In this document: in pieces, positions 21,531-37,357 of the stretch
Position numbering within the stretch: position 1 is the stretch's first letter
Layout of the letters: each line of letters starts with the position of its first letter
Source: Desulfovibrio sp. JY
Lineage (GTDB): Bacteria; Desulfobacterota; Desulfovibrionia; Desulfovibrionales; Desulfovibrionaceae
DNA: 64,000 bases
Assembly (NCBI GenBank): GCA_021730285.1
Contig: CP082962.1
Location: 620,001 to 684,000, forward strand
Direction: 5' to 3'
The notes under the pieces: model-generated
Databases searched by the model: none
The model's input: only the letters and a program-made list of their open reading frames with translations
Told to the model about the DNA's origin: nothing
Translations under genes and position numbers: made by a program

Positions 21531-23522
21531 CTACGCGGGAATGATCTGATAGTAGGCCTTCTTGAAGACCTTGGTTTCCTTGGTGGCCGGATCGTACTTG
21601 GAATTGACGAAGCACTTCCATTTGCTGTCGTCCAGGCCCAGGAAGTCGCCGCGGTAGTAGAAGCCCGGGTAACGGGTCTCTTCGCGGAACATGATGTGGG
21701 TCATGTGCAGGCGAACGGTCCACAGGCGGTGGTACTGTTCCCAGCAACGCATCAGCTCGTGCAGGTCGCGGGCGGCCAGCTTCTTGCTGTCCTCTTCGAG
21801 GTACTGCAGCAGCTGGAAGCCGGTGTTGAGCAGGGACTTGGAGGTGGTGTACATGGTCATGCAACCTCCGCCGTACTCGTCCGTGCACTTCACCAGACGC
21901 ATCATGAAGTTATGCGGGCTGATGTAGTTGGGGTTGACGATCGGGTCGGTGGAAGCGCCGACGCCGGCCTTGAAGGTCTCCCAGGGCTGGTAGATCTCTT
22001 TGGCGAGATCGGCACCCTTCTCGTTCAGGCTGGGCTTGAAGCCCTTGTGGTCGACGACCCAACGCACAAGCTGCTTGCCGACGATGCGGCCCTCGGCGTG
22101 GGAGCCCGAGGAGAACTTGTGGCCGGAAGCGCCAACGCCGTCAGCGCAGGTGAACAGACCGTTGACCGAGGTCATGCGGTTGTAGACCTTGCCGTTGTCG
22201 GCTTTGATCTTGTACTCGTCCGGAACCCAGGCTTCGTCCGGGCCGGAGACCCAGATGCCGCAGCAGCCGGAGTGGGAACCGAGCAGGTACGGCTCGGTCG
22301 GCATGATCTCGGAACCCTTCTTCTCGGGCTCGATGTCCTGACAGGCCCACAGGTTGGCCTGGCCGACGCACATGTCGAGGAAGTCTTCCCAGGCTTCGGC
22401 TTCGAGGTGCTTCTGCTGCTCGGCGTTCAGGTTGGCGAAGGTGTTCTGCAGGGCGGTCTTGGTGTCCATGTAGATCGGACCGCGGCCTTCGCGCATTTCA
22501 CGGAGCATCATGTGGTTACGCAGGCAGGTCGGGATGATGTTGCCCTTGGCGTAGCCGCGATCCTCGTAGGGCTTCAGCATGGCCTTGTTGGTCGCGCAGT
22601 AGTCCTCGCCCTTGGCGTTGGTGGCTTTGGCCTTGAAGAGCAGGAACCAGGCGCCGACCGGGCCGTAACCGTCCTTGAAACGGGCGGGGACGAACCGGTT
22701 TTCCATCATGGTCATCTCGGCGCCGACCTGGGCGCACATGGTGTAGGTGGAACCAGCGTTCCAGACCGGGTACCAGGCGCGACCCATGCCTTCACCGGTG
22801 GAGCGGGGACGGTACACGTTGACCGCGCCGCCGCAGGCCACCAGGATGGCGTTGGCCTTGAAGACATAGACTTTGTTTTCGCGGGTGGAGAAGCCGACCG
22901 CACCGGCGATGCGGTTGGGCTCCTTGGCGTCCAGGAGCAGCTTCACGATGAAGACGCGCTCCATGTAGCGATCCTGGCCCAGGGCGTTCTTGGCAGCCTC
23001 GGCCACGATGCACTTGTAGGACTCGCCGTTGATCATGATCTGCCAGCGGCCGGAGCGGACGGGCTTGGCGCCGGTGCGCAGGGACACGCCCTTGGCCTTG
23101 GACTGCGCGCCATCCAGGTTGTGGCCGCTTTCGTCCTTGGTCCAGCAGGGCAGGCCCCACTCTTCGAACAGGTGGACGGAGTCGTCGACGTGACGGCCGA
23201 CGTCGAAGATCAGGTCTTCGCGCACGAGGCCCATGAGGTCGGTGCGGACCATCTTGACGTAGTCGTCGGGGTCGTTCTCACCCATGTAGGTGTTGATGGC
23301 GGACAGGCCCTGGGCAACGGCGCCGGAGCGCTCGAGGGCGGCCTTGTCGAGCAGCATGATGCTGATGCCACCAATCTTGTCGGCCCAGCGGCAGGCTTCG
23401 AAGGCGGCGCCGCAGCAGCCCATGCCGCCGCCGACCATCAGGATGTCAACGTCTTTTTCAATCAGTTCCGGCTCGGCGAGGGCAACGCCTTTGGGCTCGT
23501 CCTTCACGGGAATCGTCGGCAT
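21531..23522 (-). CDS. aprA: AprA, adenylylsulfate (APS) reductase alpha subunit
   Basis: 663 residues, the usual length. It has the FAD dinucleotide fold ILMVGGGMGCCGAAFEACRW near the N-terminus and the fumarate-reductase-like flavoprotein body (CGGAVNVYRPRSTGEGMGRAWYP; GSHSGCCGIWVSGPDEAW; CADGVGASGHKFSSGSHAEGRI). With AprB it reduces APS to sulfite and AMP, the second step of dissimilatory sulfate reduction, in the cytoplasm. It starts 51 bp after aprB and is followed by a terminator and then qmoABC. Confidence 0.97.
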   Translation of the reverse strand: MPTIPVKDEPKGVALAEPELIEKDVDILMVGGGMGCCGAAFEACRWADKIGGISIMLLDKAALERSGAVAQGLSAINTYMGENDPDDYVKMVRTDLMGLVREDLIFDVGRHVDDSVHLFEEWGLPCWTKDESGHNLDGAQSKAKGVSLRTGAKPVRSGRWQIMINGESYKCIVAEAAKNALGQDRYMERVFIVKLLLDAKEPNRIAGAVGFSTRENKVYVFKANAILVACGGAVNVYRPRSTGEGMGRAWYPVWNAGSTYTMCAQVGAEMTMMENRFVPARFKDGYGPVGAWFLLFKAKATNAKGEDYCATNKAMLKPYEDRGYAKGNIIPTCLRNHMMLREMREGRGPIYMDTKTALQNTFANLNAEQQKHLEAEAWEDFLDMCVGQANLWACQDIEPEKKGSEIMPTEPYLLGSHSGCCGIWVSGPDEAWVPDEYKIKADNGKVYNRMTSVNGLFTCADGVGASGHKFSSGSHAEGRIVGKQLVRWVVDHKGFKPSLNEKGADLAKEIYQPWETFKAGVGASTDPIVNPNYISPHNFMMRLVKCTDEYGGGCMTMYTTSKSLLNTGFQLLQYLEEDSKKLAARDLHELMRCWEQYHRLWTVRLHMTHIMFREETRYPGFYYRGDFLGLDDSKWKCFVNSKYDPATKETKVFKKAYYQIIPA

Positions 23523-23573: not shown

Positions 23574-24065
23574 CTATTGGCAGAAGCCGTCGAGCCAGCA
23601 CTGGACGGTGTCCATGCCGGTGACGTCGAACTTCTTGCCAAGAGCTTCCTTCGGGGTGGCCAGGGCGGTCTCGGTGAACAGCAGCTCGCTGTCCAGGTCG
23701 GCGCCTTCGGGCTTGCCCTCGTAGGGCTTGATGGAACCTTCAGGGGTGGTGCGGATGGGGAACTTGAACCGCTTGATGTTGCCATTGCGGAACTTCACCG
23801 TCCACATGATGGAGTCGGCCGAACGCATGGGGATCGAGGTGCCGCCCATGGGAGCGAAGTCGGCGTACGGACGAGCGGAGATTGCACCCTGGGGGCAGAT
23901 CTTCACGCAGGAGTAGCATTCCCAGCAAGCGGACGGCTCCTGGTTGAAGGCGCGCATTTCCTGAGGATCCAGGATCATCAGGTCATTGGGGCAAATGTAC
24001 ATGCACGCGGTCTTCTCACCGCCTTTGCATCCGTCACACTTGCTCGGATCCACAAAGGTAGGCAT
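23574..24065 (-). CDS. aprB: AprB, APS reductase beta subunit
   Basis: 163 residues. Two 4Fe-4S clusters are visible: CDGCKGGEKTACMYICP (10-26), with the longer spacing typical of AprB cluster II, and CWECYSCVKICP (about 47-58). The remaining ~100 residues wrap around AprA in known structures. Electrons pass through these clusters to the AprA flavin. TTTGGAGGAC precedes ATG 24065. First gene of the unit; upstream lies a ~270-nt leader and a candidate promoter at 24343-24370. Confidence 0.97.
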   Translation of the reverse strand: MPTFVDPSKCDGCKGGEKTACMYICPNDLMILDPQEMRAFNQEPSACWECYSCVKICPQGAISARPYADFAPMGGTSIPMRSADSIMWTVKFRNGNIKRFKFPIRTTPEGSIKPYEGKPEGADLDSELLFTETALATPKEALGKKFDVTGMDTVQCWLDGFCQ

Positions 24066-24642: not shown

Positions 24643-24672
24643 TTGACAACTTCGAGCGGCCCCGCGTAGCTC
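24643..24672 (+). promoter_or_regulatory. Candidate promoter of the aromatic amino-acid operon
   Basis: An exact TTGACA lies at 24643-24648 just after an A-rich stretch. The -10 is weak (TAGCTC at 24667, 18-bp spacing). If used, transcription would start at or next to the leader-peptide ATG at 24680, making its message nearly leaderless; no Shine-Dalgarno sequence is seen before that ATG. Confidence 0.4.
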
Positions 24673-24679
24673 TCTGGCC

Positions 24680-24769
24680 ATGCAGTCCCTCACCAACCCC
24701 ACCACCGGCTTTTATTTTTGGTTCTGGTTTAGCCACGCCCGTGGTCAGGGAGGGGTGCGGTCGAACTAA
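24680..24769 (+). CDS. Aromatic amino-acid leader peptide (attenuator peptide)
   Basis: A 29-codon open frame, ATG 24680 to TAA 24767. Codons 11-17 read Phe-Tyr-Phe-Trp-Phe-Trp-Phe: seven consecutive aromatic residues covering all three products of the downstream operon. The stop is 23 bp before an intrinsic terminator, and a stretch inside the frame just after the aromatic codons (24737-24746) can pair with the left arm of that terminator. This is the classic layout of a ribosome-mediated attenuator such as trpL or pheL. Scarcity of any charged aromatic tRNA would stall the ribosome on the run and favour the antiterminator. The ribosome site is weak, and expression is inferred. Confidence 0.85.
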   Translation: MQSLTNPTTGFYFWFWFSHARGQGGVRSN

Positions 24770-24803
24770 CGAAACCGCAACGAGCCACTCCAGGGCCGCG
24801 GGC
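24737..24803 (+). promoter_or_regulatory. Antiterminator pairing of the aromatic attenuator
   Basis: GCCCGTGGTC (24737-24746) can pair over 10 positions, two of them G-U, with GGCCGCGGGC (24794-24803), which is the left arm of the terminator. The two structures are mutually exclusive. The upstream partner lies 8 to 17 nt after the last aromatic codon, so it is free when a ribosome stalls there and covered when the ribosome runs to the stop. No strong separate 1:2 protector stem was seen. Confidence 0.7.
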
Positions 24804-24825
24804 ATCACGCCGGCGGCCCTTTTTT
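24793..24825 (+). terminator. Attenuator terminator of the aromatic operon
   Basis: GGGCCGCGGGC (24793-24803) pairs with GCCGGCGGCCC (24809-24819), one mismatch, loop ATCAC, followed by six T (24820-24825). It lies 55 bp before the first structural gene. Confidence 0.9.
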
Positions 24826-24880
24826 GTTTCCTGTCGTCGGCGTTCCCCCCCTCGGGAGGCCAAACCGCAAGGAGACCGTC

Positions 24881-25678
24881 ATGCTGCTTGGTAAAGCCGT
24901 CCGCCTCGAACGTATTTTCAATCGCAACACGCACCGCGCCATCATCGTCCCCATGGACCACGGCGTCACCGTCGGCCCCATCGCCGGGCTCATCGACATG
25001 CGCGACGCCGTCAACCAGGTGGCCGAGGGCGGGGCCAACGCCGTGCTCATGCACAAGGGCCTGCCCCGCTGCTCCCATCGCGGCCGGGGTCGCGACGTCG
25101 GGCTCATCATCCACCTGTCCGCCTCCACCTCGCTGTCCCCCTTCCCCAATGCCAAGGCCCTGGTGGCCACGGTCGAGGACGCCATCAAGCTCGGCGCGGA
25201 CGGCGTGTCGCTGCACATCAACCTTGGCGACGAGACCGAACGCGACATGCTCGGGCACCTCGGCGAAGCCACCTCCCGCGCCGCCGAATGGGGCATGCCG
25301 GTTCTGGCCATGGTCTACGCCCGCGGCCCCAAGGTGAAAAACGAGTACGACCCCGATGTGGTGGCCCACTGCGCCCGGGTCGGCACCGAGCTCGGCGCCG
25401 ACGTGGTCAAGGTCCCCTACACCGGCGACATCAAGTCCTTCTCCCGCGTCACCGACGCCTGCTGCATCCCGGTGGTCATCGCCGGCGGCCCCAAGATGGA
25501 CAACGACCGCGACCTGCTCCAGATGGCCCACGACTCCATCCAGGCCGGCGGCTCCGGACTCTCCATCGGCCGCAACATCTTCCAGCACAAGCAGCCGGCC
25601 CGCATCGTCCAGGCCCTGCACGGCATCGTGCACCTCGATTGGGAAGTCGATCAGGCCCTCGAACTGCTCAAGGACTAG
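24881..25678 (+). CDS. 2-amino-3,7-dideoxy-D-threo-hept-6-ulosonate (ADTH) synthase, class I aldolase family
   Basis: 265 residues, GGAGA before ATG 24881. It belongs to the class I fructose-bisphosphate aldolase-like family that includes MJ0400: [15 protein letters not shown] near the start, the Schiff-base Lys in [12 protein letters not shown], and the phosphate site [18 protein letters not shown] ... [13 protein letters not shown]. In the archaeal route this enzyme condenses a deoxy-ketohexose phosphate with aspartate semialdehyde, replacing DAHP synthase. The adjacent 3-dehydroquinate synthase II and the whole aromatic operon support that role over a glycolytic aldolase. First structural gene after the attenuator. 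Confidence 0.9.
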
Positions 25679-25680
25679 TC

Positions 25681-26655
25681 ATGACCAAGGAAATCTGGCT
25701 CAAAGCCATCCCGTTCGACAAAGAGATCGTCACCCTCGGCATCGAATCCGGCGTGGACGGATTCGTGGCCGAGGCGGCGGACGCCGAAAAGATCCTGGCC
25801 CTCGGGCGCACCAAGGTGATGACGCCCGAGGAGATGGACCTGATCCCCATCGGCTGCAAGGACGACGAAGGCACGGCCATCGATGCGCTCAAAACCTGCC
25901 GGCCGGTCTTTCTGGCCAAGGGCTGGGAGATCATCCCGGTGGAGAACATCCTGGCCTGCACCGAGGGGCTCGGGCTCGAGTGCGAAAGCCTGGACCGGGC
26001 CAGGCTCGCCGCCGGGGTGCTGGAGCGCGGCGCGGACAAGCTCTTGATCGCCCCAGAGGCCGTCTGCGACCTTAAAACCATCGTCAACGAACTGAAACTT
26101 TCCCAGGGAACCATGGAACTCGCGCCGGCAACCATCACCAAGATCGAACACGCCGGCCTCGGGCACCGGGTCTGCGTGGACACGACCAGTATCCTCAAAA
26201 CAGGCGAAGGCATGCTCGTCGGCAATTCCTCGGCCTTCACCTTCCTGGTCAACGCCGAGACCGAGTCCAACCCCTACGTGGCGGCGCGGCCTTTCCGCAT
26301 CAATGCCGGCGCGGTCCACGCCTACTGCCAGATGCCCGGGGACAAGACCCGCTACCTGGAGGAACTGGCCGCCGGCTCGGAAGTGCTGGTCGTCTCCCAC
26401 ACCGGGGCCACCAAAACGGCGGTGGTCGGCCGGGTCAAGACCGAAATCCGGCCCATGCTGCTCATCACGGCCGAAGTGGACGGCAAGGAAGGCAAGGTGT
26501 TCTTGCAAAACGCCGAGACCATCCGGCTGGTGACGCCCGAGGGCAAACCCGTCAGCGTCGTGACCATAAAGGAAGGCGACGCCGTGCTCGTACGCACCGA
26601 CGTGGCCGGCCGCCATTTCGGCATGCGCATCGCCGAAGACATCAAGGAAGGTTAG
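25681..26655 (+). CDS. 3-dehydroquinate synthase II (archaeal type)
   Basis: 324 residues, starting 2 bp after the previous stop. Similar to the MJ1249 family: KEIWLKAIPFDKEIVTLGIESGVDG, then LEEGADKLL-like VLERGADKLLIAPEA, GHRVCVDTTSILKTGEGMLVGNSS, and the C-terminal SHTGATKTAVVGRVKTEIRPMLLI. The enzyme oxidatively deaminates and cyclises ADTH to 3-dehydroquinate with NAD. It replaces the bacterial AroB; Desulfovibrio and some other deltaproteobacteria are known to use this route. Later shikimate enzymes (dehydroquinase, AroE, AroK, AroC) are not in this window. Confidence 0.93.
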   Translation: MTKEIWLKAIPFDKEIVTLGIESGVDGFVAEAADAEKILALGRTKVMTPEEMDLIPIGCKDDEGTAIDALKTCRPVFLAKGWEIIPVENILACTEGLGLECESLDRARLAAGVLERGADKLLIAPEAVCDLKTIVNELKLSQGTMELAPATITKIEHAGLGHRVCVDTTSILKTGEGMLVGNSSAFTFLVNAETESNPYVAARPFRINAGAVHAYCQMPGDKTRYLEELAAGSEVLVVSHTGATKTAVVGRVKTEIRPMLLITAEVDGKEGKVFLQNAETIRLVTPEGKPVSVVTIKEGDAVLVRTDVAGRHFGMRIAEDIKEG

Positions 26656-26656
26656 G

Positions 26657-27817
26657 ATGGCCCCGGAGACGACAAAAAACGCCGCTCAAAACGCCCCGGG
26701 GACCCTGGAAGAGGCGTTGCTCGAACTGCGAAACGGCATCGACGCCGTGGACGGGCAGATACTCACCCTGCTCAACAAGCGCGCGGGCCTGAGCCTCGAG
26801 GTCGGTCGCCGCAAGGCCGGCCGCCAAAGCGCCGTGTTCAAACCCTTCCGCGAGCAGGAGGTGCTGGAACGGCTGGCCGCGAAAAACCCCGGCCCCCTGC
26901 CCGTTCCCCATCTGCTCGCCATCTACCGGGAGATACTGTCCTCCTCGCGCCGGCTCCAGCGCCCCGAACGCGTGGCCTACCTCGGCCCCGAGGGCACCTT
27001 CTCCCACTTCGCGGCCATGGCCGCCCTGGGCCATTCCCCGGACTTCCTGCCCCAGACCACCATCGGCGACGTTTTCGCGGCGGTCGCCAGCCGGCTGGCG
27101 GACCTCGGCATCGTGCCGCTGGAAAACTCGCTGCAAGGCACGGTCGGCCAAAGCCTCGACCACTTCCAGCGCCACGAGGTCTTCATCCAGGCGGAAATCT
27201 CCTGCCGCATAAGCCACGCCCTGCTCTCCACGGCCACCGACCTCGGCGCGATCGAAACCGTCTATTCCCATCCCCAGCCCCTGGCCCAGTGCGCCACCTG
27301 GCTCAAGACGCACCTGCCCGCGGCGCGGATCATCCCCACCGACTCCACGGCGGCCGCCGCCCTGCGCCTGGCCGGCGAACCCACCGCCGCCTCCATCGGG
27401 CACGTGAAACTCGCCGCCATGCATGGGCTCAACATCCTGGCCAGCCCCATCGAGGACCTGCCGGACAACTGGACGCGGTTTTTCATCATCGGCCCCGAGG
27501 ACACCAAGCAGCAGACGCGCGACAAGACCTCGGTCCTTTTCACCGTGCCCAACAAACCCGGATCGCTCTACCAAGTGCTCTCGCATCTGGCCGGCGAGGG
27601 CATCAACCTGACCAAGCTCGAATCACGGCCCATTCGCGGCGAAAAATGGCAGTACGTCTTTTTCGCCGATCTCCAGTGCGACCTCACCCGGGAGGAGTAC
27701 CGGAAGCTCCTGACCACGCTCATGGAACAGACGCTCAGCCTGCGTATCCTCGGCTGCTACCCGGTCGGCAGACAGGTGGATCTTGCCGACGGCGATCTGG
27801 AACCGAACGGAGATTAA
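26657..27817 (+). CDS. pheA: PheA, chorismate mutase / prephenate dehydratase with ACT domain
   Basis: 386 residues, start 1 bp after the previous stop. Three domains are visible: AroQ chorismate mutase (about 14-95: LRNGIDAVDGQILTLLNKRAGLSLEVGRRKA), prephenate dehydratase (about 105-285: VAYLGPEGTFSHFAA, PLENSLQGTVGQ, the TRFFIIG end), and an ACT regulatory domain (about 295-370, with NKPGSLYQVLSHLAGEGINLTKLESRPIRGEKWQYVFF). The ESRP motif and GSLY-type site indicate phenylalanine feedback. It converts chorismate to phenylpyruvate. Confidence 0.95.
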   Translation: MAPETTKNAAQNAPGTLEEALLELRNGIDAVDGQILTLLNKRAGLSLEVGRRKAGRQSAVFKPFREQEVLERLAAKNPGPLPVPHLLAIYREILSSSRRLQRPERVAYLGPEGTFSHFAAMAALGHSPDFLPQTTIGDVFAAVASRLADLGIVPLENSLQGTVGQSLDHFQRHEVFIQAEISCRISHALLSTATDLGAIETVYSHPQPLAQCATWLKTHLPAARIIPTDSTAAAALRLAGEPTAASIGHVKLAAMHGLNILASPIEDLPDNWTRFFIIGPEDTKQQTRDKTSVLFTVPNKPGSLYQVLSHLAGEGINLTKLESRPIRGEKWQYVFFADLQCDLTREEYRKLLTTLMEQTLSLRILGCYPVGRQVDLADGDLEPNGD

Positions 27818-27881: not shown

Positions 27882-29201
27882 ATGCCAACCGTCGCCGCCC
27901 CGCCTTCCAAGTCCGTCTCGCACCGGGCCGTCATCGCCGCCAGCCTCGCCGCCGGTACAAGCCGCGTCGCCGGCCTGCTCGACAGCCAGGACATCACCCG
28001 CACCCGGGACTGCATGGCCGCCATGGGCGCGGCCTTCCATCCCCAGTCCGACGGCTCGGTCATCGTCTCGGGCACCGCCGGCCACCCCCAGGGCGGCGAT
28101 CCCGAAGACGGCGAGCCGCAAATCCTCGACGTGGGCGAATCCGGCACCACCTGCCGCCTTTTGACCGCCGTGGCCGCCGCCGGCCAGGGCGTCTTCGAGA
28201 TTCGCGGCGAGGGCCGCATGCACGAGCGCCCCATCGGCGAACTGGTCAACGCCCTGCTGCCCCTCGGCATCGAAGCCCTCTACCTCGGCAAATCCGGCTG
28301 CCCGCCGCTGACCATCGTCACGCACGGCCTCGCCGGCGGAACCACCGCCATCAGCCTCGAGGACAGTTCGCAATACCTTTCCGGCCTGCTTCTGGCCGCG
28401 CCCCTGGCCGCCGCGCCGCTCACCATCGAAGTCACCGGCCAGAAAACCGTGTCCTGGCCCTACGTCGCCATCACCCTGTCCACCCTGGCCGACTTCGACG
28501 TCCCCTTTGCCGTGGAAGTCCTCCACGGCGACGCCTGGGCCCAAACCGACTGGCGCACGCTTGTCGACGTCATCCCCGGACAGGTGCGCTTCGTCATGCG
28601 CCCCGCGCTCTACCAGCCCCGCGACTATGTCGTGGAAGGCGACTGGTCGAGCGCGTCCTACTTCCTGGCCGCCGGCGCCGTGGGCAAGGCCCCGGTCACC
28701 GTCACCGGCCTGCGGCCCGACTCGCTCCAGGGCGACCGGGCGATCCTCGACATCCTCGCCCGCATGGGCGCGCGCATTGACCAGGGCCCCGACGGCATCA
28801 CCGTGCTGCCAAGCAGCCTCACCGGCCAGGACCTGGACATGGGCCGTTGCCCGGACCTCGTGCCGACCGTGGCCTCGGCCGCCTGCTTCGCCAAGGGGGA
28901 AACGACCATCCGGAATGTCGCCCACCTGCGCCTCAAGGAGTCCGACCGCATCGAGGCCGTGGCCGAAAACTGCACCCAGGCCGGCGCGGTGGTCACCACC
29001 ACCCCCGACGGCATGCGCATCAAACCCCGGCCGCTGCCCACAGGGGAACGCGTCGAATTTTCCGCCTTCTGCGACCACAGGCTGGCCATGTCCGCCGCCA
29101 TCTTCGAAATGGCCGGCATCGAGGTGGCCCTGGACAACACCACCTGCGTGGCCAAGTCGTTCCCGGCGTTCTGGGAGAAGTGGCAGGCGGTACGACCGTA
29201 G
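27882..29201 (+). CDS. aroA: AroA, 3-phosphoshikimate 1-carboxyvinyltransferase (EPSP synthase)
   Basis: 439 residues, preceded by AAGGA. PPSKSVSHRAVIAASLAAGTSRV at the N-terminus is the substrate-binding start (SKS), NVGESGTTCRLL-type motif reads DVGESGTTCRLLTAV (PEP site region GTTxR), and RLKESDRIEAV is the conserved C-terminal signature. It joins PEP to shikimate 3-phosphate. The 64-bp gap from pheA is ordinary; the 270 bp to tyrA is filled with repeats. Confidence 0.96.
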   Translation: MPTVAAPPSKSVSHRAVIAASLAAGTSRVAGLLDSQDITRTRDCMAAMGAAFHPQSDGSVIVSGTAGHPQGGDPEDGEPQILDVGESGTTCRLLTAVAAAGQGVFEIRGEGRMHERPIGELVNALLPLGIEALYLGKSGCPPLTIVTHGLAGGTTAISLEDSSQYLSGLLLAAPLAAAPLTIEVTGQKTVSWPYVAITLSTLADFDVPFAVEVLHGDAWAQTDWRTLVDVIPGQVRFVMRPALYQPRDYVVEGDWSSASYFLAAGAVGKAPVTVTGLRPDSLQGDRAILDILARMGARIDQGPDGITVLPSSLTGQDLDMGRCPDLVPTVASAACFAKGETTIRNVAHLRLKESDRIEAVAENCTQAGAVVTTTPDGMRIKPRPLPTGERVEFSAFCDHRLAMSAAIFEMAGIEVALDNTTCVAKSFPAFWEKWQAVRP

Positions 29202-29473: not shown

Positions 29474-30376
29474 ATGCCACATACGAACAAAGATGCGAAC
29501 AGCCCCACCCCGTCAGAAGTTTTTGGGGAGGGTGGGGGTCCGGGGGAGGGGACCCCTTTTTCCAAAAAGGGGTCCCCTCCCCCGGAATCTTCCCGCCTCA
29601 CCATCAACTCCCTCGCCCTGGTCGGGGCGCGGGGGGGGATGGGGAAGTTGATTGTCGGGCGGTGCCGGGAGGCCGGGCTTGCGGTGCGGGAGCTGGACCG
29701 GCCGCTGACGGAAGCCAAGATCGCGGAGGGCGTTACGGGCGCGGACATGGTGCTGGTGTCCGTGCCGGTCTACGCCACGGGCGAAGTGGCCGAAAAGGTC
29801 GCCGCGCACATGGGAGGCAGGCAGATATTGGCCGACGTGGGTTCGGTCAAGACGCAGCCCATCAACGACATGGTGGCGCATTATCATGGTCCGGTGGTCG
29901 GCACGCATCCGCTTTTCGGGCCGGCTCCGGGGCCTGACGACGCGCTGCGGGTGGCGGTCATGGACGGCCGGCCGGGACAGGACGTCTGGGCCACGCAGAC
30001 GGTTGCCGGCTGGTGCGAGCGCATCGGGTTTGTGCCCTTCGCCTCGGACGCCGAGGAGCACGACCGGGCGGCGGCCTATGTGCAGGGACTCAATTTCGTC
30101 ACCACCCTGGCCTATCTGGCGGCCCAGGGAGCCGGCGGCGCGGTGCGAAAGTACCTGACGCCGTCGTTTACCCGGCGGCTGGTCGCGGCCGAAAAACTCA
30201 TCACCAAGGACGCGGGGCTTTTCACCGCGCTTTACGAAGCCAATCCGTACAGCCATGAGGCCGTGCGCAATTTTCGCAGCTTTCTCAACCTCGCCGCGGG
30301 CGGCGACGTGGACCTGCTCGTTCGCCGCGCCGAGGCGTGGTGGACCGCCGAAACGGCAAAAAAGGACAATCCATGA
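29474..30376 (+). CDS. tyrA: TyrA, prephenate dehydrogenase, with a repeat-encoded N-terminal extension
   Basis: 300 residues. The NAD-binding fold (LALVGARGGMGKLI) only begins at about residue 47, then QILADVGSVKTQPI, GTHPLFGPAPG and the HxxxAYVQGLNF helix of TyrA. It oxidatively decarboxylates prephenate to 4-hydroxyphenylpyruvate. The first ~40 residues are Gly, Pro and Ser rich, and residues ~22-37 are translated from a 22-bp perfect hairpin of repeat family 1. No ATG, GTG or TTG lies between the hairpin and the catalytic domain, so ATG 29474 (AAAGG upstream) is the best start; a CTG or ATC start near 29609 cannot be excluded. No ACT or mutase domain. It overlaps trpE by 4 bp. Confidence 0.88.
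   Translation: MPHTNKDANSPTPSEVFGEGGGPGEGTPFSKKGSPPPESSRLTINSLALVGARGGMGKLIVGRCREAGLAVRELDRPLTEAKIAEGVTGADMVLVSVPVYATGEVAEKVAAHMGGRQILADVGSVKTQPINDMVAHYHGPVVGTHPLFGPAPGPDDALRVAVMDGRPGQDVWATQTVAGWCERIGFVPFASDAEEHDRAAAYVQGLNFVTTLAYLAAQGAGGAVRKYLTPSFTRRLVAAEKLITKDAGLFTALYEANPYSHEAVRNFRSFLNLAAGGDVDLLVRRAEAWWTAETAKKDNP
29540..29585. repeat. Hairpin repeat, family 1, copy c, inside the tyrA reading frame
   Basis: A perfect 22-bp stem (29540-29561 with 29564-29585), preceded by the family flank AGAAGTTTTTGGGGAGGG at 29516. The same type of element is intergenic at six other places; here it lies in frame in tyrA. Confidence 0.9.
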
Positions 30377-31791
30377 GTGCGATTACGCTTAGGCAGGAAG
30401 GGACGTGGCTGCCGGCCGACGTGCAGACGCCCATAAGCCTTTTTCTCGGGCTTGTGGGGGAGAGGCCGGGCATACTGCTTGAAAGCGCCGAGGTGGACGG
30501 CCGGCTGGGCCGTTACAGCCTCATCGCCTGGGATTTCCGCCTGCGCCTGCGCCTGAAGGACGGCAAGCTCGACGTCAATGCCACGGACGACCGGTTAAAG
30601 GCCTTGGAGCAGTACAGCGGCCAGGGCTTCCTGGAGGGCATGCGCGGCCTCATGGCCGACCTGCGCGTGCTGCCGCCCGAGGGCTTCAAGGACGTGCCGC
30701 CCATCACGCGCTCCCTGGCGGGCTATTTCGGCTACGGCATCGCCGGCATTCTCGAGCCCAAGCTGGAAAGCGTGTTGCCGCCCGAGGAGGCGGAGTTCTG
30801 TCTGGTGCTGCCCGGCCGCGTGGTGCTGTTCGACCACGTCAAGCACCGCTGCCTGCATCTTTCCCTGGATGCCGGCAAGAAGGCCCGCATCGATTATTCC
30901 AACATCTTCGCGCCGATGAACCGGCCGGTCATCGGCAAGGTGGTCAACCGCCCCGAAGCCGAAGGCTACATGGAGGCCGTGACCAAGTGCAAGGAGATGA
31001 TCCGGGCCGGCGAGTGCATCCAGACGGTGCTTTCCACGCAGTTTTCCGCGCCTTTTTCCGGCGACCCCTTCGTGGTCTACCGCCGGCTGCGCCAGGTGAA
31101 CCCCTCGCCGTACATGTTCTTCATGCGCCTGCCGCGGGTGACGCTTTTAGGCTCCTCGCCGGAGCTGCTCATCCGCTGCCGCGACGGCGAGCTGACCACC
31201 TGCCCCATCGCCGGGACCCGGCCGCGCGGCAAGACCCCCGAGCAGGACGACAGGCTGGCCGAGGAGCTGATGGCCGACCCCAAGGAGCGCGCCGAGCACG
31301 TCATGCTGGTGGACCTCGGCCGCAACGACCTGGGCCGCATGGCCGGACCCGGCACGGTCAAGGTCGAGAAGTTCATGGCCGTGGAACGCTTTTCCCACGT
31401 CATGCACATCGTGTCCTACGTGACGGCCAAGCTGAAAGACGGCCTCGACGCTTTGGACGTGCTCAAGTGCGCCTTTCCGGCCGGGACCCTTTCCGGCGCG
31501 CCCAAGGTGCGGGCCATGGAGATGATCGCCGAGCTGGAGCACAGCCTGCCGCGCGGGCCGTATGCCGGCTGCATCGGCTGGATCGGCCTGGACGAGGGAC
31601 GCGTGAACCTGGACACGGGCATCACCATCCGCAGCATGTGGATACGCGACGGCATGCTCGCCTGGCAGGCCGGAGCCGGCATCGTCTACGATTCCGATCC
31701 GGCCAAGGAATGGATGGAGTGTCAGAACAAGGCCCGGGTGATCGCCGAGGTGCTGGCGGCCAAGGAGGATGGCGATGTTTTTACTTATTGA
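30373..31791 (+). CDS. trpE: TrpE, anthranilate synthase component I
   Basis: 472 residues from ATG 30373, which overlaps the tyrA stop (ATGA). The N-terminal LLES motif (ILLESAEVDGRLGRYSLI) is the tryptophan feedback site. The chorismate-binding core follows, with IAGTRPRGKTPEQD, ELMADPKERAEHVMLVDLGRNDLGR, FPAGTLSGAPKVRAMEMI and the final QAGAGIVYDSDP. With TrpG it makes anthranilate from chorismate and glutamine. Next gene trpG starts inside its 3' end. Confidence 0.96.
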   Translation: MSAITLRQEGTWLPADVQTPISLFLGLVGERPGILLESAEVDGRLGRYSLIAWDFRLRLRLKDGKLDVNATDDRLKALEQYSGQGFLEGMRGLMADLRVLPPEGFKDVPPITRSLAGYFGYGIAGILEPKLESVLPPEEAEFCLVLPGRVVLFDHVKHRCLHLSLDAGKKARIDYSNIFAPMNRPVIGKVVNRPEAEGYMEAVTKCKEMIRAGECIQTVLSTQFSAPFSGDPFVVYRRLRQVNPSPYMFFMRLPRVTLLGSSPELLIRCRDGELTTCPIAGTRPRGKTPEQDDRLAEELMADPKERAEHVMLVDLGRNDLGRMAGPGTVKVEKFMAVERFSHVMHIVSYVTAKLKDGLDALDVLKCAFPAGTLSGAPKVRAMEMIAELEHSLPRGPYAGCIGWIGLDEGRVNLDTGITIRSMWIRDGMLAWQAGAGIVYDSDPAKEWMECQNKARVIAEVLAAKEDGDVFTY

Positions 31792-32347
31792 TAACTTCGA
31801 TTCGTTCACCTTCAACGTGGTCCAGGCCTTCCAGCAACTGGGCCGCGACCCGGTGGTGAAAAAGAACGACGACCCCGAGATTTTGGAGCTGGCTTCCTCC
31901 GGCAAGCTCGACATGGTCTGCATCTCGCCCGGGCCCAGCAACCCGGCCAATGCCGGGTTGTGCTTGCAGTTTCTCGCACAACTGCCAAAACAGACCCCGG
32001 TTTTCGGCGTCTGCCTGGGGCATCAGATCCTCGGGCACTTCGCCGGCGCGCCGGTTGTCGTGGCCGACCGCATCATGCACGGCAAGACGTCGGACGTGTA
32101 CCACCGCGAAACGGGGCTGTTTACGGGGTTGCCCAACCCCTTCGAGTGCTGCCGTTACCATTCGCTGGTGGTGCTCGCGGGCAAGGCTCCGGACAAGCTG
32201 GAGATCACGGCCTGGACCGACCGAAACGAGGTGATGGGACTGCGGTATCGCGACCGGCCCTGGGTAGGGGTGCAGTTTCATCCGGAATCGGTGTTCACTC
32301 CCGACGGGATGAAGCTGATCGGGAACTTTCCGGACAAGATTTTATAA
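31775..32347 (+). CDS. trpG: TrpG, anthranilate synthase glutamine amidotransferase
   Basis: 190 residues from ATG 31775, about 6 bp after AAGGAGG; the ATG at 31769 touches that site and is less likely. It overlaps the trpE end by 17 bp. The class I amidotransferase nucleophile is Cys80 in GVCLGHQILGHFAG, and the His-Glu pair is in VQFHPES near the C-terminus; SPGPSNPANAG forms the oxyanion region. It supplies ammonia from glutamine to TrpE. Confidence 0.96.
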   Translation: MFLLIDNFDSFTFNVVQAFQQLGRDPVVKKNDDPEILELASSGKLDMVCISPGPSNPANAGLCLQFLAQLPKQTPVFGVCLGHQILGHFAGAPVVVADRIMHGKTSDVYHRETGLFTGLPNPFECCRYHSLVVLAGKAPDKLEITAWTDRNEVMGLRYRDRPWVGVQFHPESVFTPDGMKLIGNFPDKIL

Positions 32348-32359
32348 GGATACCTGCTT

Positions 32360-32749
32360 GTGAACACCGTCCCCGTTCTGCTCGACAAGGCCAAGGACAG
32401 CCTGCACGGCGCGCGTTTGCTCGCCGCCGAGGGTCTCTTCGACTGCGCCATGAGCCGGACGTTCTTCAGCATGCATTACGTGGCCGAGGCGTTTCTGCTG
32501 ACCGTCAGGCTTGACGTGAACGACCCGCGCGACGTCATCGCCGCCTTCGGCCAGCGCTTCGCCTACCCGAGCGAACTGCCGCCCGTCTTCCACCGCTGGC
32601 TGGTCGAGGCCGAGCACCTGCGCAACCGCGCCGATTTCGAAACCAACCTCTGCCTGACCCCCGAAGTCGTGGCCGAACAGCTCGACCGGGCCAGGGCGTT
32701 TCTCAACATGGCCCGCGAGGAATTGGAAGCAGCCACCGCCCCGCGTTAA
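32360..32749 (+). CDS. HEPN-domain protein inserted in the trp operon
   Basis: 129 residues from GTG 32360, behind AAGGATACC. The whole protein looks like a single helical HEPN domain (AKDSLHGARLLAAEGLFDCAMSRTFFSMHYVAEAFLL, then a LRNRADFE segment). A possible RxxxxxxH pair (Arg79, His86) is present, but the usual catalytic Arg-His context is not clear. HEPN proteins are often RNases or nucleotide-transferase partners, in toxin-antitoxin pairs with MNT; no nucleotidyltransferase gene is next to it. It lies between trpG and trpD with 12- and 27-bp spacing, so it is transcribed with the operon. Its role there is unknown. Confidence 0.8.
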   Translation: MNTVPVLLDKAKDSLHGARLLAAEGLFDCAMSRTFFSMHYVAEAFLLTVRLDVNDPRDVIAAFGQRFAYPSELPPVFHRWLVEAEHLRNRADFETNLCLTPEVVAEQLDRARAFLNMAREELEAATAPR

Positions 32750-32776: not shown

Positions 32777-33787
32777 GTGGAAAAACATGTCGAATGCCTG
32801 GAACTTCTCGCCATCGGCAAGGACCTGCCCCAGGAACTGGCCACCTACGCCTTCCGGGCCATGTACACCGGCGAGATGCCGGCGTCGTGCGTGGGCGCGT
32901 TCCTGATGGGGCTCAAGACCAAGGGCGAATCCGCCGTGGAGATCGCGGCCGGCGTCACCGCCGCCCTGGAAGAGGCCCGCATCGTCGCGGGACTCACCGG
33001 AGCGCGCATCGACACCTGCGGCACCGGCGGCGACAACACCTGCTCGTTTAACTGCTCCACCGCCGTGGCGCTCTACCTCGCCGCCCTGGGCCACAAGGTG
33101 GTCAAGCACGGCAACCGCGCCGTCTCCAGCTCCTGCGGCAGCGCCGACGCCGTGGAATCCCTGGGATTCACCCTGGTGGTCGAACCCGAACTGGTCGCGG
33201 CCGAACTCGACAAGCACAACTTCGTCTTTCTCTTCGCCCCCAACTACCATCCGGCCTTCAAGCGCATCGGCCCCATCCGCAAGGAGCTCGGCGTGCGTTC
33301 GCTTTTCAACCTCATGGGCCCCCTGCTCAACCCCGCCCGCCCCACCCACCAACTCCTCGGCGTGCCCACCTCCCGCCACGTGCGGCTCATGGGCGAGGTG
33401 CTGGCCCTGACCGGCCTGTCCTGCGGCGCGGTGGTCCACGGGGCCGGCGGCTTCGACGAACTGACCCCCTTCGGTCCGGCCGACGTGTGCTGGCTGCGCG
33501 ACGGCTGGATCAAAAGCGACCGCATCGACCCGGCCGCCCTGGGCTTCCCGACCCACAAGCCGGCCGACGTGGTGGTCTCGGGCCGCGACGAGGCCGTGGC
33601 CGTGCTGCGCGAGGTCCTGGCCGGCAAGGGCAACGCGGCCATGCGCGACATGGTGGCGCTCAACCTCGGCTGCTCCCTGCACCTGCTCGAGGACGGCCTC
33701 ACCCTCAGGCAGGGCATGGACAAGGCCCGCGACGCCGTCGCTTCCGGCATCGCCGCCAAGTTCTTCGAGGACGTGCTCCATGCTTGA
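32777..33787 (+). CDS. trpD: TrpD, anthranilate phosphoribosyltransferase
   Basis: 336 residues from GTG 32777 with AAAGGAG upstream. The PRPP site is DTCGTGGDNTCSFNCSTAVALYLAALG, followed by KHGNRAVSSSCGSADAVESLG; the anthranilate region NYHPAFKRIGPIRKELGVRSLFNLMGPLLNPA is intact. It adds phosphoribose to anthranilate. The 3' end overlaps trpC by 8 bp. Confidence 0.96.
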   Translation: MEKHVECLELLAIGKDLPQELATYAFRAMYTGEMPASCVGAFLMGLKTKGESAVEIAAGVTAALEEARIVAGLTGARIDTCGTGGDNTCSFNCSTAVALYLAALGHKVVKHGNRAVSSSCGSADAVESLGFTLVVEPELVAAELDKHNFVFLFAPNYHPAFKRIGPIRKELGVRSLFNLMGPLLNPARPTHQLLGVPTSRHVRLMGEVLALTGLSCGAVVHGAGGFDELTPFGPADVCWLRDGWIKSDRIDPAALGFPTHKPADVVVSGRDEAVAVLREVLAGKGNAAMRDMVALNLGCSLHLLEDGLTLRQGMDKARDAVASGIAAKFFEDVLHA

Positions 33788-34550
33788 GAAGTTCCGGGCC
33801 GCCCAGGCCAAGGCCATAAAACGCCTCAAGGACCTCGAGGCGGCCCAGCGCCTGCCCGCCAGGTATGACGGCGCGCGACCGTCCTTTTCCGACGCCCTGC
33901 TCGCCGCCGGCCCCATCGCCGTCATCGCCGAGTACAAACGGGCCTCGCCGTCGGCGGGCGACATCAACCTGGGGCTCGCCCCGGGCGAGGTCGCGGCCAT
34001 GTACGCCGCCTCCGGGGCCGCCGCCATATCGGTGCTGACCGAGGAGACCTACTTCAAGGGCTCCGTCGACTATCTGGAGCCCATCAGCGCCGCCGGGCTG
34101 CCCATGCTGCGCAAGGACTTCCTGCTCCATCCGCTCCAGGTGGTGGAAACCGCCGCCACCAAGGCCTCGGCCCTGCTTTTGATCGTACGCATGCTGACCG
34201 ACGCGGAACTGGCCGAGATGCTGCGCCTGACCTACGACGCCGGCCTCGAGGCCGTGGTCGAGGTCTTCGACGAGGCCGATCTGGCTCGGGCCGAATCCGC
34301 CGGAGCGCACATCATCCAGGTCAACAGCCGCGACCTGGACACGCTCAAAACCAACCTGGACGTGGCCCGGCGCATGGCCGCCCTGAAACGCCCGGGCCGC
34401 ATCTGGATCGCCGCCAGCGGCATCGCCAGCCGCGCCGACGTGCTCGGCATGGCCGCCATCGGCTACAACGCCGTGCTCGTCGGCACCTCCATCATGAGTG
34501 AACCCGATCCCGGCCAGGCCCTGGCCGCGCTTGCCGGAAAGGCGGACTGA
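33780..34550 (+). CDS. trpC: TrpC, indole-3-glycerol phosphate synthase
   Basis: 256 residues. Conserved motifs of the beta-alpha barrel are visible: IAEYKRASPSAGDI (phosphate and catalytic Lys region), ISVLTEETYFKGS, LRKDFLLHPLQV (second catalytic Lys), VNSRDLDTLK and the WIAASGI / VLVGTSIM phosphate site. Not fused to TrpF. Translationally coupled to trpD. Confidence 0.96.
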   Translation: MLEKFRAAQAKAIKRLKDLEAAQRLPARYDGARPSFSDALLAAGPIAVIAEYKRASPSAGDINLGLAPGEVAAMYAASGAAAISVLTEETYFKGSVDYLEPISAAGLPMLRKDFLLHPLQVVETAATKASALLLIVRMLTDAELAEMLRLTYDAGLEAVVEVFDEADLARAESAGAHIIQVNSRDLDTLKTNLDVARRMAALKRPGRIWIAASGIASRADVLGMAAIGYNAVLVGTSIMSEPDPGQALAALAGKAD

Positions 34551-34551
34551 T

Positions 34552-35178
34552 ATGGCCGGACTACTGGTAAAAATCTGCGGCATGACCCGCCCCGAGGACG
34601 TCCTCGGCTGCGCCGAAGCCGGGGCCGACCTGCTCGGGTTCATCTTCGCCGCCAAGAGCCCGCGTCGCGTCACGCCCGCGCAGGCCGCCGCCCTGCCCCG
34701 CACCACGGCCAGGCGCGTCGGCGTGTTCGTCGAACAGAGCCTCGACGAGGTGCTGCGCATCATGGACGAGGCCGAGCTCGACTTCGCCCAGCTCCACGGC
34801 GACCAGGACGCGGCGTTCTGCCGCGCTGTGGGGCCGGAGCGCGTCATCCGCGCCTTCTGGCCGAAAAAACACCCGGACACGGCCACCCTCGTCGCCGCCA
34901 TGGAATCCTTCACCGGCGCGATCCGCTACGCGCTCCTCGACGCCGGCACCTCCGGCGGCGGCCACGGCGTGTCCCTCGACTTCGCCTCCCTGGCCGAATT
35001 TTCCCCGCCCATGCCCTGGCTCCTGGCCGGAGGCCTGGGACCCGACAACATCACCGAGGCCCTGGCCCAGGCCAAACCCCACGGCCTGGACCTCAACTCC
35101 GGCGTGGAATCCTCCCCGGGGCTCAAGGACCTCGCAAAAGTCCGGAGGTCCCTTTGGTCCGTGAAAGGGAGAGGATAA
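34552..35178 (+). CDS. trpF: TrpF, phosphoribosylanthranilate isomerase
   Basis: 208 residues from ATG 34552, one base after the trpC stop; an in-frame ATG at 34498 lies inside trpC and lacks a ribosome site. VKICGMTRPEDVLGCAEAGADLLGFIFAAKSPRRV holds the catalytic Cys (ICG) and the phosphate-binding start; LLDAGTSGGGHGVSLDF and LLAGGLGPDNI follow. Isomerises phosphoribosylanthranilate. Confidence 0.95.
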   Translation: MAGLLVKICGMTRPEDVLGCAEAGADLLGFIFAAKSPRRVTPAQAAALPRTTARRVGVFVEQSLDEVLRIMDEAELDFAQLHGDQDAAFCRAVGPERVIRAFWPKKHPDTATLVAAMESFTGAIRYALLDAGTSGGGHGVSLDFASLAEFSPPMPWLLAGGLGPDNITEALAQAKPHGLDLNSGVESSPGLKDLAKVRRSLWSVKGRG

Positions 35179-35405: not shown

Positions 35406-36590
35406 ATGCGTAAAGCGTACTTTGGAGACTTCGGGGGACAGTTTGTCCCCGAACTGCTCATGCCGCCGCTTCTGGAGCTGGAAGAGGCCATGAAGACCAT
35501 CGTGCCAAGCGAGAAGTTCCAGAAGGAACTCGGCGCGCTGCTGACCGATTACGTAGGCCGGCCCTCGCCGCTGTACCGCTGCCCCAACCTGTCCAGGGAG
35601 CTGGGGTTCGATCTGTGGCTTAAAAGGGAAGATCTGAACCATACCGGCGCGCACAAGATCAACAACACCATGGGCCAGGGGCTGCTCACGAAATACATGG
35701 GCAAGCAGGTGCTTCTGGCCGAGACCGGGGCCGGCCAGCACGGCGTGGCCACGGCCACGGCCGCCGCCATGTTGGGCCTTGGCTGCATCGTCTACATGGG
35801 GGCCGAGGACGTTTCCCGCCAGTCCCACAACGTCAAGCGCATGAAGCTCCTTGGCGCGGAGGTCGTGCCCATCGAGTCCGGCACCAAGACGCTCAAGGAC
35901 GCCATCAACGCGGCGCTGCGCTACTGGATCGCCGAGCAGCGCACCACGCACTACTGCTTCGGCACGGCGGCCGGGCCCCATCCATTCCCCACGCTGGTGC
36001 GCGACTTCCAGGCCATCATTTCCAAGGAAGCGCGGGCCCAGTGTTTGGAGAAGATGGGCCGGCTGCCGGACTACGTGGTCGCCTGCGTGGGCGGCGGTTC
36101 CAACGCCATCGGCATGTTCCACCACTTCGAACCGGACGCGTCGGTCAAACTCATCGGCGTGGAAGCCGCCGGCACGGGCGAACCGGGCTGCTACAACTCC
36201 GCGCCCATAAACTTGGGCACGCCGGGGGTGCTCCACGGCATGCACTCCATGCTCCTGCAAACCAGGGAAGGCCAGATCCTGCCCTCCCATTCCGTTTCCG
36301 CCGGCCTGGACTATCCCGGCGTCGGCCCCGAGCATGCCCATCTGGCCGCCACCGGCCGGGTGCACTACGGCATGGCCGTGGATACCGAGGCGCTCAATGC
36401 CTTCGAGGTCCTGTGCCATCGGGAAGGCATCATCCCGGCGCTTGAAAGCTCCCATGCCGTAGGCTGGGTGCTGACCCACGCCGCCGAGATTCCGAAAGGG
36501 TCGCAGGTGGTGGTGTGCCTGTCCGGCCGGGGCGACAAGGACCTCGGCATCATCGAAGCCTACGAAAAAAAGGCGGGAGGCCGCGCATGA
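35406..36590 (+). CDS. trpB: TrpB, tryptophan synthase beta subunit
   Basis: 394 residues, GGAGG before ATG 35406. The N-terminus RKAYFGDFGGQFVPELLMPPL is typical; the PLP Lys is in REDLNHTGAHKINNTMGQ; AETGAGQHGVATATAAA and the phosphate loop CVGGGSNAIGMF follow. It condenses indole with serine. Overlaps trpA by 4 bp. Confidence 0.97.
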   Translation: MRKAYFGDFGGQFVPELLMPPLLELEEAMKTIVPSEKFQKELGALLTDYVGRPSPLYRCPNLSRELGFDLWLKREDLNHTGAHKINNTMGQGLLTKYMGKQVLLAETGAGQHGVATATAAAMLGLGCIVYMGAEDVSRQSHNVKRMKLLGAEVVPIESGTKTLKDAINAALRYWIAEQRTTHYCFGTAAGPHPFPTLVRDFQAIISKEARAQCLEKMGRLPDYVVACVGGGSNAIGMFHHFEPDASVKLIGVEAAGTGEPGCYNSAPINLGTPGVLHGMHSMLLQTREGQILPSHSVSAGLDYPGVGPEHAHLAATGRVHYGMAVDTEALNAFEVLCHREGIIPALESSHAVGWVLTHAAEIPKGSQVVVCLSGRGDKDLGIIEAYEKKAGGRA

Positions 36591-37357
36591 GCCAGTCCAT
36601 CCTTACCACTCGCATCATGGAGGCGCTGGCGGCCGGACGCAAGGCGCTGATTCCGTTTCTGCCCGGCGGATTTCCGGACAAGGAACGGTTTTTCGACGAA
36701 CTCGACGCGCTGGATGCCGGCGGCGCGGACATCATCGAGATCGGCGTGCCCTTTTCCGATCCCGTTGCCGACGGACCGGTGGTGGAAAAGGCGTCCCTCG
36801 ATTGCCTGTTAAACGGCACCTGCCTGTCCTGGATCCTCCACGAACTCGAGCGCCGCAAGGGCCGCTACAAGGCGGGACTGGTGCTCATGGGCTACTACAA
36901 TCCCTTTCTCCAGTACGGCCTGGAAAACCTTGCCGAGGATGCGGCGGCGGCCGGGGTTGCGGGATTCGTCGTCCCGGACCTGCCCCTGGAGGAAGCCGGG
37001 CCCATGGCCGAGACCCTGGGGAAACACGACCTGGACCTGATCCCGCTGGTCGGGCTCAACACGTCCGAGGAGCGGCTTGCCGCCTACGCGGCCCATGCCA
37101 GGGGATTCGTCTACTTCGTCTCCGTGCTCGGCACCACGGGCATGCGCGAGACGCTGCCGGCCGAAATCGCCGAGCACCTCGCCTCGGTGCGGCGCATCTT
37201 CGACGTGCCCGTGGCCCTCGGCTTCGGCATCAAATCCCCGGAACAGCTCATCCCCTTCGGCGACAGCATCGACGCCGTGGTCTTCGGCTCGGCGCTGATC
37301 GCCCACATCGAGACCGGCGGCACGGCCGCCGAATTCATGCAGCGCTGGCGCAGCTGA
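36587..37357 (+). CDS. trpA: TrpA, tryptophan synthase alpha subunit
   Basis: 256 residues from ATG 36587, overlapping the trpB stop (ATGA). Barrel motifs: the catalytic Glu in DIIEIGVPFSDPVADGPVV with its following Asp, VLMGYYNPFLQYG, and VALGFGIKSPEQL near the phosphate site. It releases indole to TrpB. Last gene of the aromatic operon; no clear terminator follows, only a GC-rich stretch. Confidence 0.96.
   Translation: MSQSILTTRIMEALAAGRKALIPFLPGGFPDKERFFDELDALDAGGADIIEIGVPFSDPVADGPVVEKASLDCLLNGTCLSWILHELERRKGRYKAGLVLMGYYNPFLQYGLENLAEDAAAAGVAGFVVPDLPLEEAGPMAETLGKHDLDLIPLVGLNTSEERLAAYAAHARGFVYFVSVLGTTGMRETLPAEIAEHLASVRRIFDVPVALGFGIKSPEQLIPFGDSIDAVVFGSALIAHIETGGTAAEFMQRWRS

Follow-up and report, generated by a model that had tools for sequence, protein, structure and literature searches.

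In the genome of Desulfovibrio sp. JY, a short leader open reading frame (ORF) in which Phe, Tyr and Trp codons form a single run stands in front of a 13-gene row, of which 12 genes are biosynthetic. Analysis of the window (the whole stretch of 64,000 nucleotides studied here) and of related genomes makes it very likely that this leader is a ribosome-mediated transcription attenuator, through which the charging of three tRNAs would control one operon.

The leader and operon of the window

The original prediction had described a 29-codon frame containing Phe-Tyr-Phe-Trp-Phe-Trp-Phe, a stop codon 23 bp before a G+C stem followed by six T residues, and a 10-position pairing that excludes the terminator. 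Each of these elements was recovered (Table 1): the aromatic residues occupy codons 11-17, 23 nt separate the end of the stop codon (24769) from the stem, and the ten positions form ten standard pairs, two of them G-U. When the 300 nt preceding the first gene were shuffled 20,000 times with dinucleotide composition kept, no ORF reached seven aromatics in nine residues (the best value, six, occurred 16 times), and the leader was the sole ORF with seven aromatics among the 502 ORFs of 10-80 amino acids on both strands of the window. A chance ORF was rejected, because the aromatic run lies far beyond what dinucleotide shuffles produce. The leader is probably translated, and its relatives are marked by their codon choice. 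In loci above 60% G+C, TTT encodes Phe in 289/413 (70%) cases in leader ORFs versus 43/392 (11%) in the genes for 2-amino-3,7-dideoxy-D-threo-hept-6-ulosonate (ADTH) synthase, and TAT encodes Tyr in 122/210 (58%) versus 29/302 (10%); this excess of U-ending codons suggests selection either for slow codons or else for an unstructured run.

The 4.69 Mb genome contains the terminator pattern GGCCGCNGGCN{2,14}GCGGCCNTTTT at two places, one ahead of each close ADTH synthase gene at a distance of 58 or 59 nt. Simple scanners reported neither a plus-strand terminator here nor a sigma-70 consensus promoter at the leader, probably owing to a loop beyond the 8-nt limit of the scanner and to a weak -10 element. 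The window had no match at gathering score to any of 4227 Rfam families, Trp_leader and other leader families included, and a T-box, riboswitch or Rfam leader was rejected on this result. When the window was taken alone, 2/100 shuffles of the stretch after the run paired with the terminator arm as well as segment A (the 5' strand of the antiterminator) does, so the weight of this pairing comes from relatives (below).

In the mechanism we propose, a ribosome would translate the leader while following RNA polymerase. With Phe-, Tyr- and Trp-tRNA all charged and plentiful, it would pass the aromatic run and segment A to reach the stop codon, where it would cover the RNA just 3' of A, block the pairing of A with the arm and let the terminator form. 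Shortage of any one of the three would stall the ribosome at the first corresponding codon (F11, Y12 or W14); segment A would then be free to pair with the emerging 3' strand in one long antiterminator hairpin, and polymerase would continue into the biosynthetic genes. Leader translation, stalling and the response to each amino acid are thus parts of a model, with which predicted folding is consistent. Once polymerase had just cleared the arm, a ribosome on F11, Y12, W14 or W16 made the antiterminator the predicted minimum-energy fold (-40.7 to -42.9 kcal/mol), and with a ribosome at the leader stop the terminator alone was available. Against the model, only 7/10 antiterminator pairs were left when the ribosome stalled at F17, the last Phe. 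The complete leader at equilibrium preferred the terminator (-48.7 over -45.3), and did so also with a ribosome on F11, Y12 or W14; the switch must therefore be kinetic, the order of synthesis deciding its outcome. In these foldings the terminator and the inner part of the antiterminator hairpin are compatible and can exist side by side.

All twelve biosynthetic genes would share one transcript. The names given to the tyrA-like gene, trpE and trpB rest on best match and context, because the matches lie below cut-offs (tyrA, trpE) or in a general family (trpB). A gene for a HEPN-domain protein occupies the same place in one locus of the same genus (L141) and was unrecognised in the other supraoperons compared. 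The operon is divergent from a match to the adenylylsulfate reductase beta subunit (23574-24065, minus strand), and a 663-aa ORF (21531-23522, minus strand) is presumably the alpha subunit.

Table 1. Features of the leader region and operon, in window positions
Feature	Position	Strand	Support or detail
-35 box TTGACA of the inferred promoter	24643-24648	+	TTGACA in 14/15 aligned rows, the window's operon included; TTGACG in L023
Weak -10-like TAGCTC, 18-nt spacer	24667-24672	+	At this offset T 67%, A 81% in 108 leaders; unrecognised by consensus scan
Leader peptide ORF, MQSLTNPTTGFYFWFWFSHARGQGGVRSN and stop	24680-24769	+	Open reading frame; aromatic leaders in relatives
Regulatory codons TTT TAT TTT TGG TTC TGG TTT (FYFWFWF)	24710-24730	+	Conserved aromatic cluster
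Segment A, antiterminator 5' strand, within leader ORF directly after aromatic run	24737-24746	+	
Antiterminator inner part, GGAG...CTCC, leader stop in loop	24748-24790	+	Partial support in relatives
Intrinsic terminator	24793-24825	+	Stem GGGCCGC 24793-24799 / GCGGCCC 24813-24819, then T6 24820-24825
Antiterminator 3' strand	24794-24803	+	Overlaps terminator 5' arm
Shine-Dalgarno AAGGAG of first structural gene	24869-24874	+	
ADTH synthase, aroA'	24881-25678	+	NCBIfam TIGR01949 397 bits, cut-off 299
3-Dehydroquinate synthase II, aroB'	25681-26655	+	NF002628 573 bits, cut-off 508; PF01959
pheA, chorismate mutase/prephenate dehydratase with ACT domain	26657-27817	+	Profile matches
aroA, EPSP synthase	27882-29201	+	TIGR01356 above cut-off
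tyrA-like prephenate dehydrogenase, start uncertain	29594-30376	+	All matches below curated cut-offs
trpE	30373-31791	+	Best match TIGR00564 438 bits, below cut-off 517.7
trpG	31769-32347	+	TIGR00566 (trpG_papA) above cut-off
HEPN-domain protein, between trpG and trpD	32360-32749	+	PF05168 26.4 bits, cut-off 22
trpD	32777-33787	+	TIGR01245 above cut-off
trpC	33780-34550	+	PF00218 above cut-off (genome search); NCBIfam matches below cut-offs
trpF	34552-35178	+	PF00697
trpB	35406-36590	+	PF00291, general PLP-enzyme family; name from context
trpA	36587-37357	+	PF00290

Leader codons and the genes that follow

The family of this strain was represented by 149 genomes, of which 140 gave a match to the ADTH synthase at E 0.001 (weak in a few), and the best named records were Solidesulfovibrio. 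From 190 relatives 80 named loci were kept, 69 of which carry an ORF with at least five aromatics in nine residues no more than 600 nt upstream, the matches in L066 and L078 being doubtful. Such an ORF was missing in the other 11 of the 80; L095 has just 116 nt upstream, and L089, an aroB'-pheA-aroA operon, has a best ORF with four in nine and no Trp.

For gene content, 80 stretches were picked to cover genera and 80 ADTH synthase genes were scored. Thirty-two of these head trp-containing operons (the window's own operon stands outside the 32), 20 head operons without trp and 28 stand alone. Where two ADTH synthase genes lie in tandem, the second was not scored, and the counts of complete operons and copies below omit two operons without trp and one stand-alone copy that are truncated, the operons by contig ends. 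Tandem ADTH synthase genes stand at the head of the supraoperon in L158, L162, L163 and L170, where a leader was not found for the second copy.

The original prediction had pointed to homologous operons lacking an aromatic leader or a terminator as the place to look for contrary evidence. We found a leader with Phe, Tyr and Trp in all 32 trp-containing operons (25 genera), with a terminator and antiterminator that covary (below). In complete multi-gene operons without trp, Phe and Tyr were present in 18/18 leaders and Trp in 9/18. Among complete stand-alone copies with a leader under the five-in-nine rule, Trp was present in 2/18 and lacking in 16/18, these 16 leaders being Phe-rich, Tyr-rich or mixed. 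Counted by genus, Trp occurs in the leader in 25/25 for trp operons versus 8/27 (Fisher, 3e-8). Nine further stand-alone copies fell under the five-in-nine rule: two have a weaker leader and a terminator (L157, Tyr; L185, Phe), and no recognisable leader was found in the seven paralogues L161, L166, L168, L172, L173, L177 and L182, which apparently lie outside attenuation control. Possession of trpC tells a similar story in genomes with a trp-less ADTH synthase operon, where both trpC and leader Trp were found in 11, Trp only in 0, trpC only in 4 and neither in 5 (Fisher, 0.008), with G012 left out and G103 counted as having Trp (the copies disagree in each) and G049 (trpC, no Trp codon) unused; under other treatments P ranged from 0.01 to 0.056.

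Because codon content follows what the operon makes, the idea of one switch responding to any of three amino acids is strengthened, and a single ribosome-stall device probably senses all three. It is nevertheless conceivable, if unlikely, that a genuine attenuator physiologically senses just one or two of them, for example Trp, or Phe as the first met, with any slow codon helping. Phe does come first in the window leader and is common in most leaders, at least one Trp is kept in half of the complete operons without trp, and the enrichment of U-ending codons extends to both Phe and Tyr. Against this reading stand the presence of Trp ahead of all 32 trp-containing operons sampled and its absence from 16/18 stand-alone leaders, the association of leader Trp with trpC, and the existence of Tyr-rich and Phe-only paralogue leaders, which together indicate that codon identity is selected.

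Such specialised leaders occur within single genomes: the second close ADTH synthase copy of this strain, near genome position 3,987,300, has a Tyr-rich leader, MFTRTNATRTLFAGSYYYYGRRARGLAGGAAL, with its own terminator. On a quick tree of 80 genes, for which L157 (Tyr) and L185 (Phe) were classed by hand, Phe-class leaders required 3 changes (shuffled mean 10.5) and Tyr-class leaders 2 (shuffled mean 4.9); therefore specialised leaders sit mostly on paralogue clades. Where trp genes form a separate operon they often have their own Trp leader, for example ...KGWWWRIQLRGGDVRA upstream of trpE. The test for such leaders covered 15 separate trp operons out of 18 stretches, since trpE with upstream sequence is missing from L219, L224 and L234; three Trp in five residues were found in 9/15 (0-4 of 400 shuffles as high). 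Two-Trp leaders were found in L220 (13/400 shuffles), L226 (28/400) and L221 (43/400), the leader of L232 has WWW that lies outside the limits of the scripted Trp count, and in L222 and L223 a Trp leader was not above chance. Across the family, the codon mix tracks the products: Phe, Tyr and Trp for the full supraoperon, mostly Phe-rich or Tyr-rich runs for the stand-alone ADTH synthase, and often WWW for separate trp operons.

The predicted RNA switch and its 5' end in relatives

Of 143 distinct leaders, 108 have a TTGAC[A/G/T] box 29-34 nt ahead of an in-frame ATG, whereas 100 shuffled sets gave 1.8 on average and never more than 4. The commonest distance is 31 nt (exactly so in 48/143), and the sixth base of the box is A in 96%. 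A -35-like box is found only at another distance in 28/143 and is absent from 7/143. In leaders with the box at 29-34 nt, TA stands at the -10 position after an 18-nt spacer, and the base just 5' of the ATG is C (81%) or T (19%) in all 108. Because of this placement of the box, the leader mRNA is probably leaderless; in the window, transcription would start at about 24678-24680, that is, at or no more than about 2 nt from the leader ATG. We assign a low probability to a genuine attenuator with a conventional 5' UTR from an upstream start. The weakness of the -10 element, the silence of the consensus scan and the 28 leaders whose only box lies 45-75 nt from an in-frame ATG are in its favour; the tight box-to-ATG spacing, which shuffles reproduce in at most four leaders, the TA at -10 and the C/T-rich bases 5' of the ATG, lacking a purine-rich consensus, argue against it and for the leaderless mRNA.

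A structure alignment of 98 sequences was filtered for length and redundancy, with the antiterminator not used as a criterion; eight loci with poor pairing in A contribute nine of its rows (L128, L132 twice, L143, L145, L169, L188, L199 and L200). Over the ten antiterminator pairs, 92.1% of 978 cells were standard (36-44% when slid; shuffled mean 88.4%, 0/500 as high), and the covariation score was 0.280 versus 0.210 shuffled (0/500 as high). Two other shuffle measures were only just unusual, the level of pairs changed on both sides being reached in 33/500 shuffles and that of further pair types in 7/500. Because much of the 92.1% stems from conserved columns, the varying columns matter most. 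In 65 of the 98 sequences the terminator offers no standard partner to the arm base of column 118, and 64 of these 65 pair that base with column 29, which belongs to segment A (UA 42, CG 18, UG 4). A static terminator was rejected, as the antiterminator covaries at a column unable to pair in the terminator. The terminator itself was paired in 98.2% of 979 cells (slid, 26-65%), with both-side changes in 10/10 pairs. In a hand-chosen subset of 76 sequences, which leaves out 22 of the 98 including the nine rows with poor A pairing, the figures were 96.6% for the antiterminator and 99.1% for the terminator.

Individual loci gave a similar picture. A hairpin with a T run was found by script in 122 of the 143 distinct leaders, one of these (L160, -7 kcal/mol) being spurious. 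A shuffle test of the duplex between A and the arm covered leaders with a hairpin at least as stable as -12 kcal/mol; in the 121 loci with a solid terminator, many of them close relatives, the duplex was matched by at most 1/100 shuffles in 94, by at most 5/100 in 107 and by more than 5/100 in 14. The inner antiterminator helix beat 95% of shuffles in 37/114 loci, which only partly supports the helix as a second antiterminator element common to the loci. No conserved separate pause or protector hairpin was found in the alignments of relatives, where RNAalifold shows a lone 3-pair hairpin within A (76 sequences). The geometry is narrow, with median positions after the run of about +6 to +18 for A and +36 for the end of the stop codon, and the terminator arm about 26 nt after the stop; given a textbook footprint, a ribosome that has reached the stop codon would shield the RNA beside A, and an early stall would free A.

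These data leave little room for two other readings. A TnaC-like arrest peptide, in which the nascent aromatic chain stalls on free amino acid and not on uncharged tRNA, would fit the near-identity of leader peptides within the genus of this strain and the potential of aromatic-rich chains to contact the exit tunnel, but is very improbable given that aromatic order and spacing vary widely among genera and that the residues recurring after the run (ARG/ACG...) are explained by RNA pairing, because segment A encodes them. A trans-acting factor or RNA ligand (TRAP-like, T-box-like or a riboswitch), with the ORF incidental, is equally hard to sustain: the RNA structure is strongly conserved and an undescribed class would be missing from Rfam, but the aromatic ORF recurs with a codon content that follows gene content, the structure keeps its narrow distance from run and stop, and the window lacks a T-box or riboswitch match.

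A stricter terminator pattern matched in 24 of 59 family genomes. Among the 30 places listed, 25 lie before ADTH synthase, two before trpE (L274 and L275) and one at L285; two are the same sites on the other strand. In L274 and L275 the ADTH-synthase-type terminator GGGCCGCAGGC...GCGGCCC stands ahead of trpE and looks like a copy of the cassette transferred to the trp operon. On the reverse strand of L285 (genome G004), a Phe-only attenuator, MNSHHNRFGFFFFFGFRFFRSASGLGVCE, is followed by a small ORF and then by a sodium:solute symporter gene (PF00474), which suggests a Phe-regulated transporter. Across the phylum, ADTH synthase matches at 1e-60 were found in 62/198 genomes, family members included. 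Twenty-three of the best 27 loci among the matches listed are outside the family, one of them without upstream sequence; an ORF with at least six aromatics in nine residues, no more than 400 nt upstream, was present in 20/22 of these best-matching loci among the matches listed, a count made without a shuffle control. Because the peptide tails differ (...GLPTVS, ...CASTFKSP), we do not claim the same RNA structure outside the family. A plasmid similarity search returned 76 records (70 Rhizobium, 3 Streptomyces, 3 Shinella), and coverage of the query stayed below 80% in every one.

TyrR/TrpR-type repressors are known from enteric bacteria. On balance we lean towards a picture in which many Desulfobacterota use, in place of such repressors, a re-programmable cassette of leaderless leader, antiterminator and terminator for aromatic synthesis. 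The cassette would have been copied to paralogous ADTH synthases, and singly to a trp operon and a sodium:solute symporter, its codon run rewritten as F, Y, FY, W or FYW to suit the downstream genes, so that leader codons set the isozyme specificity of the first step. If this is true, one stall switch reading three amino acids for a 12-gene biosynthetic set provides a simple whole-pathway logic, and duplicated first-step enzymes gain their own amino acid specificity by a few codon changes. The many natural leader variants are material for measuring how stalling, codon identity and RNA competition relate to gene output.

Comparison with known systems

The trpL and pheL leaders of Escherichia coli are ribosome-mediated attenuators, and the predicted switch is of that kind: a short leader ORF with regulatory codons, an intrinsic terminator, a competing antiterminator and a biosynthetic operon downstream. 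It differs from trpL and pheL in several respects. The window leader has three amino acids in a single run, the leader ORF itself contains the 5' strand of the antiterminator, directly behind the run and about 17 nt (median) before the end of the stop codon, a separate conserved pause hairpin was not found in this system, the mRNA is probably leaderless, and the genes downstream form a row of 13. The general scheme of ribosome-mediated attenuation is set out in PMC7298713, which also describes trpL (peTrpL) of Sinorhizobium meliloti, a leader attenuated by Trp whose ORF opens with the first nucleotides of the transcript. The leaderless mRNA proposed here would resemble that transcript, although the 5' end is reported there and predicted from promoter spacing here; peTrpL differs in reading a single amino acid and in belonging to the Alphaproteobacteria (PMC7298713).

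Published expression data bear on the attenuator. In D. hydrothermalis, a ten-gene cluster running from the aldolase through the trp genes is down under pressure, its first six genes by log2 -2.9 to -3.6 (PMC4162548), and we count this in favour of attenuation. D. desulfuricans 27774 has its aro and trp genes apart; both sets are up with nitrate and tryptophanyl-tRNA synthetase is down by log2 3.1, an induction described by its authors as unexplained (PMC5701242). Reduced charging of Trp-tRNA, acting via attenuators at putative leaders of that strain, may account for it; if so, our model suggests a testable cause for the nitrate induction of aromatic genes (PMC5701242).

We found no account of a Phe/Tyr/Trp leader peptide in the open-licence PMC literature; a related prediction could be contained in the attenuation survey that Lopatovskaya et al. 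published in 2010 (cited in PMC4833913), which falls outside this scope. A term search of Rodionov et al. (2004), on metal-reducing delta-proteobacteria, returned neither leader peptide, aromatic nor tryptophan, and a survey of cis-regulatory RNAs (PMC3766115), in the portion available, treats Rfam leaders only.

Two further systems are close to the one described here. Table 7 of Song et al. (2005; PMC1173090), drawing on Merino's predictions, places a putative attenuator ahead of the D. vulgaris genes aroA'>aroB'>aroQ-pheA>aroF>tyrA>[trp operon], the same type of operon and the same place. A putative attenuator ahead of an operon with the archaeal-type first two steps was thus already on record, which corrects the original prediction; what that table lists is an attenuator without the leader peptide, codon content or paralogue retuning reported here. 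The ilvBNC leader of Corynebacterium glutamicum contains Ile, Val and Leu codons, and replacing its Val residues abolished valine-dependent expression (PMC11857589). As in the system proposed here, one leader carries codons for several end products of one pathway, though for branched-chain and not aromatic amino acids and in another phylum. Because both the D. vulgaris attenuator and branched-chain leaders with several amino acids were already known, the new elements are this aromatic trio, the retuning of its codons and its spread.
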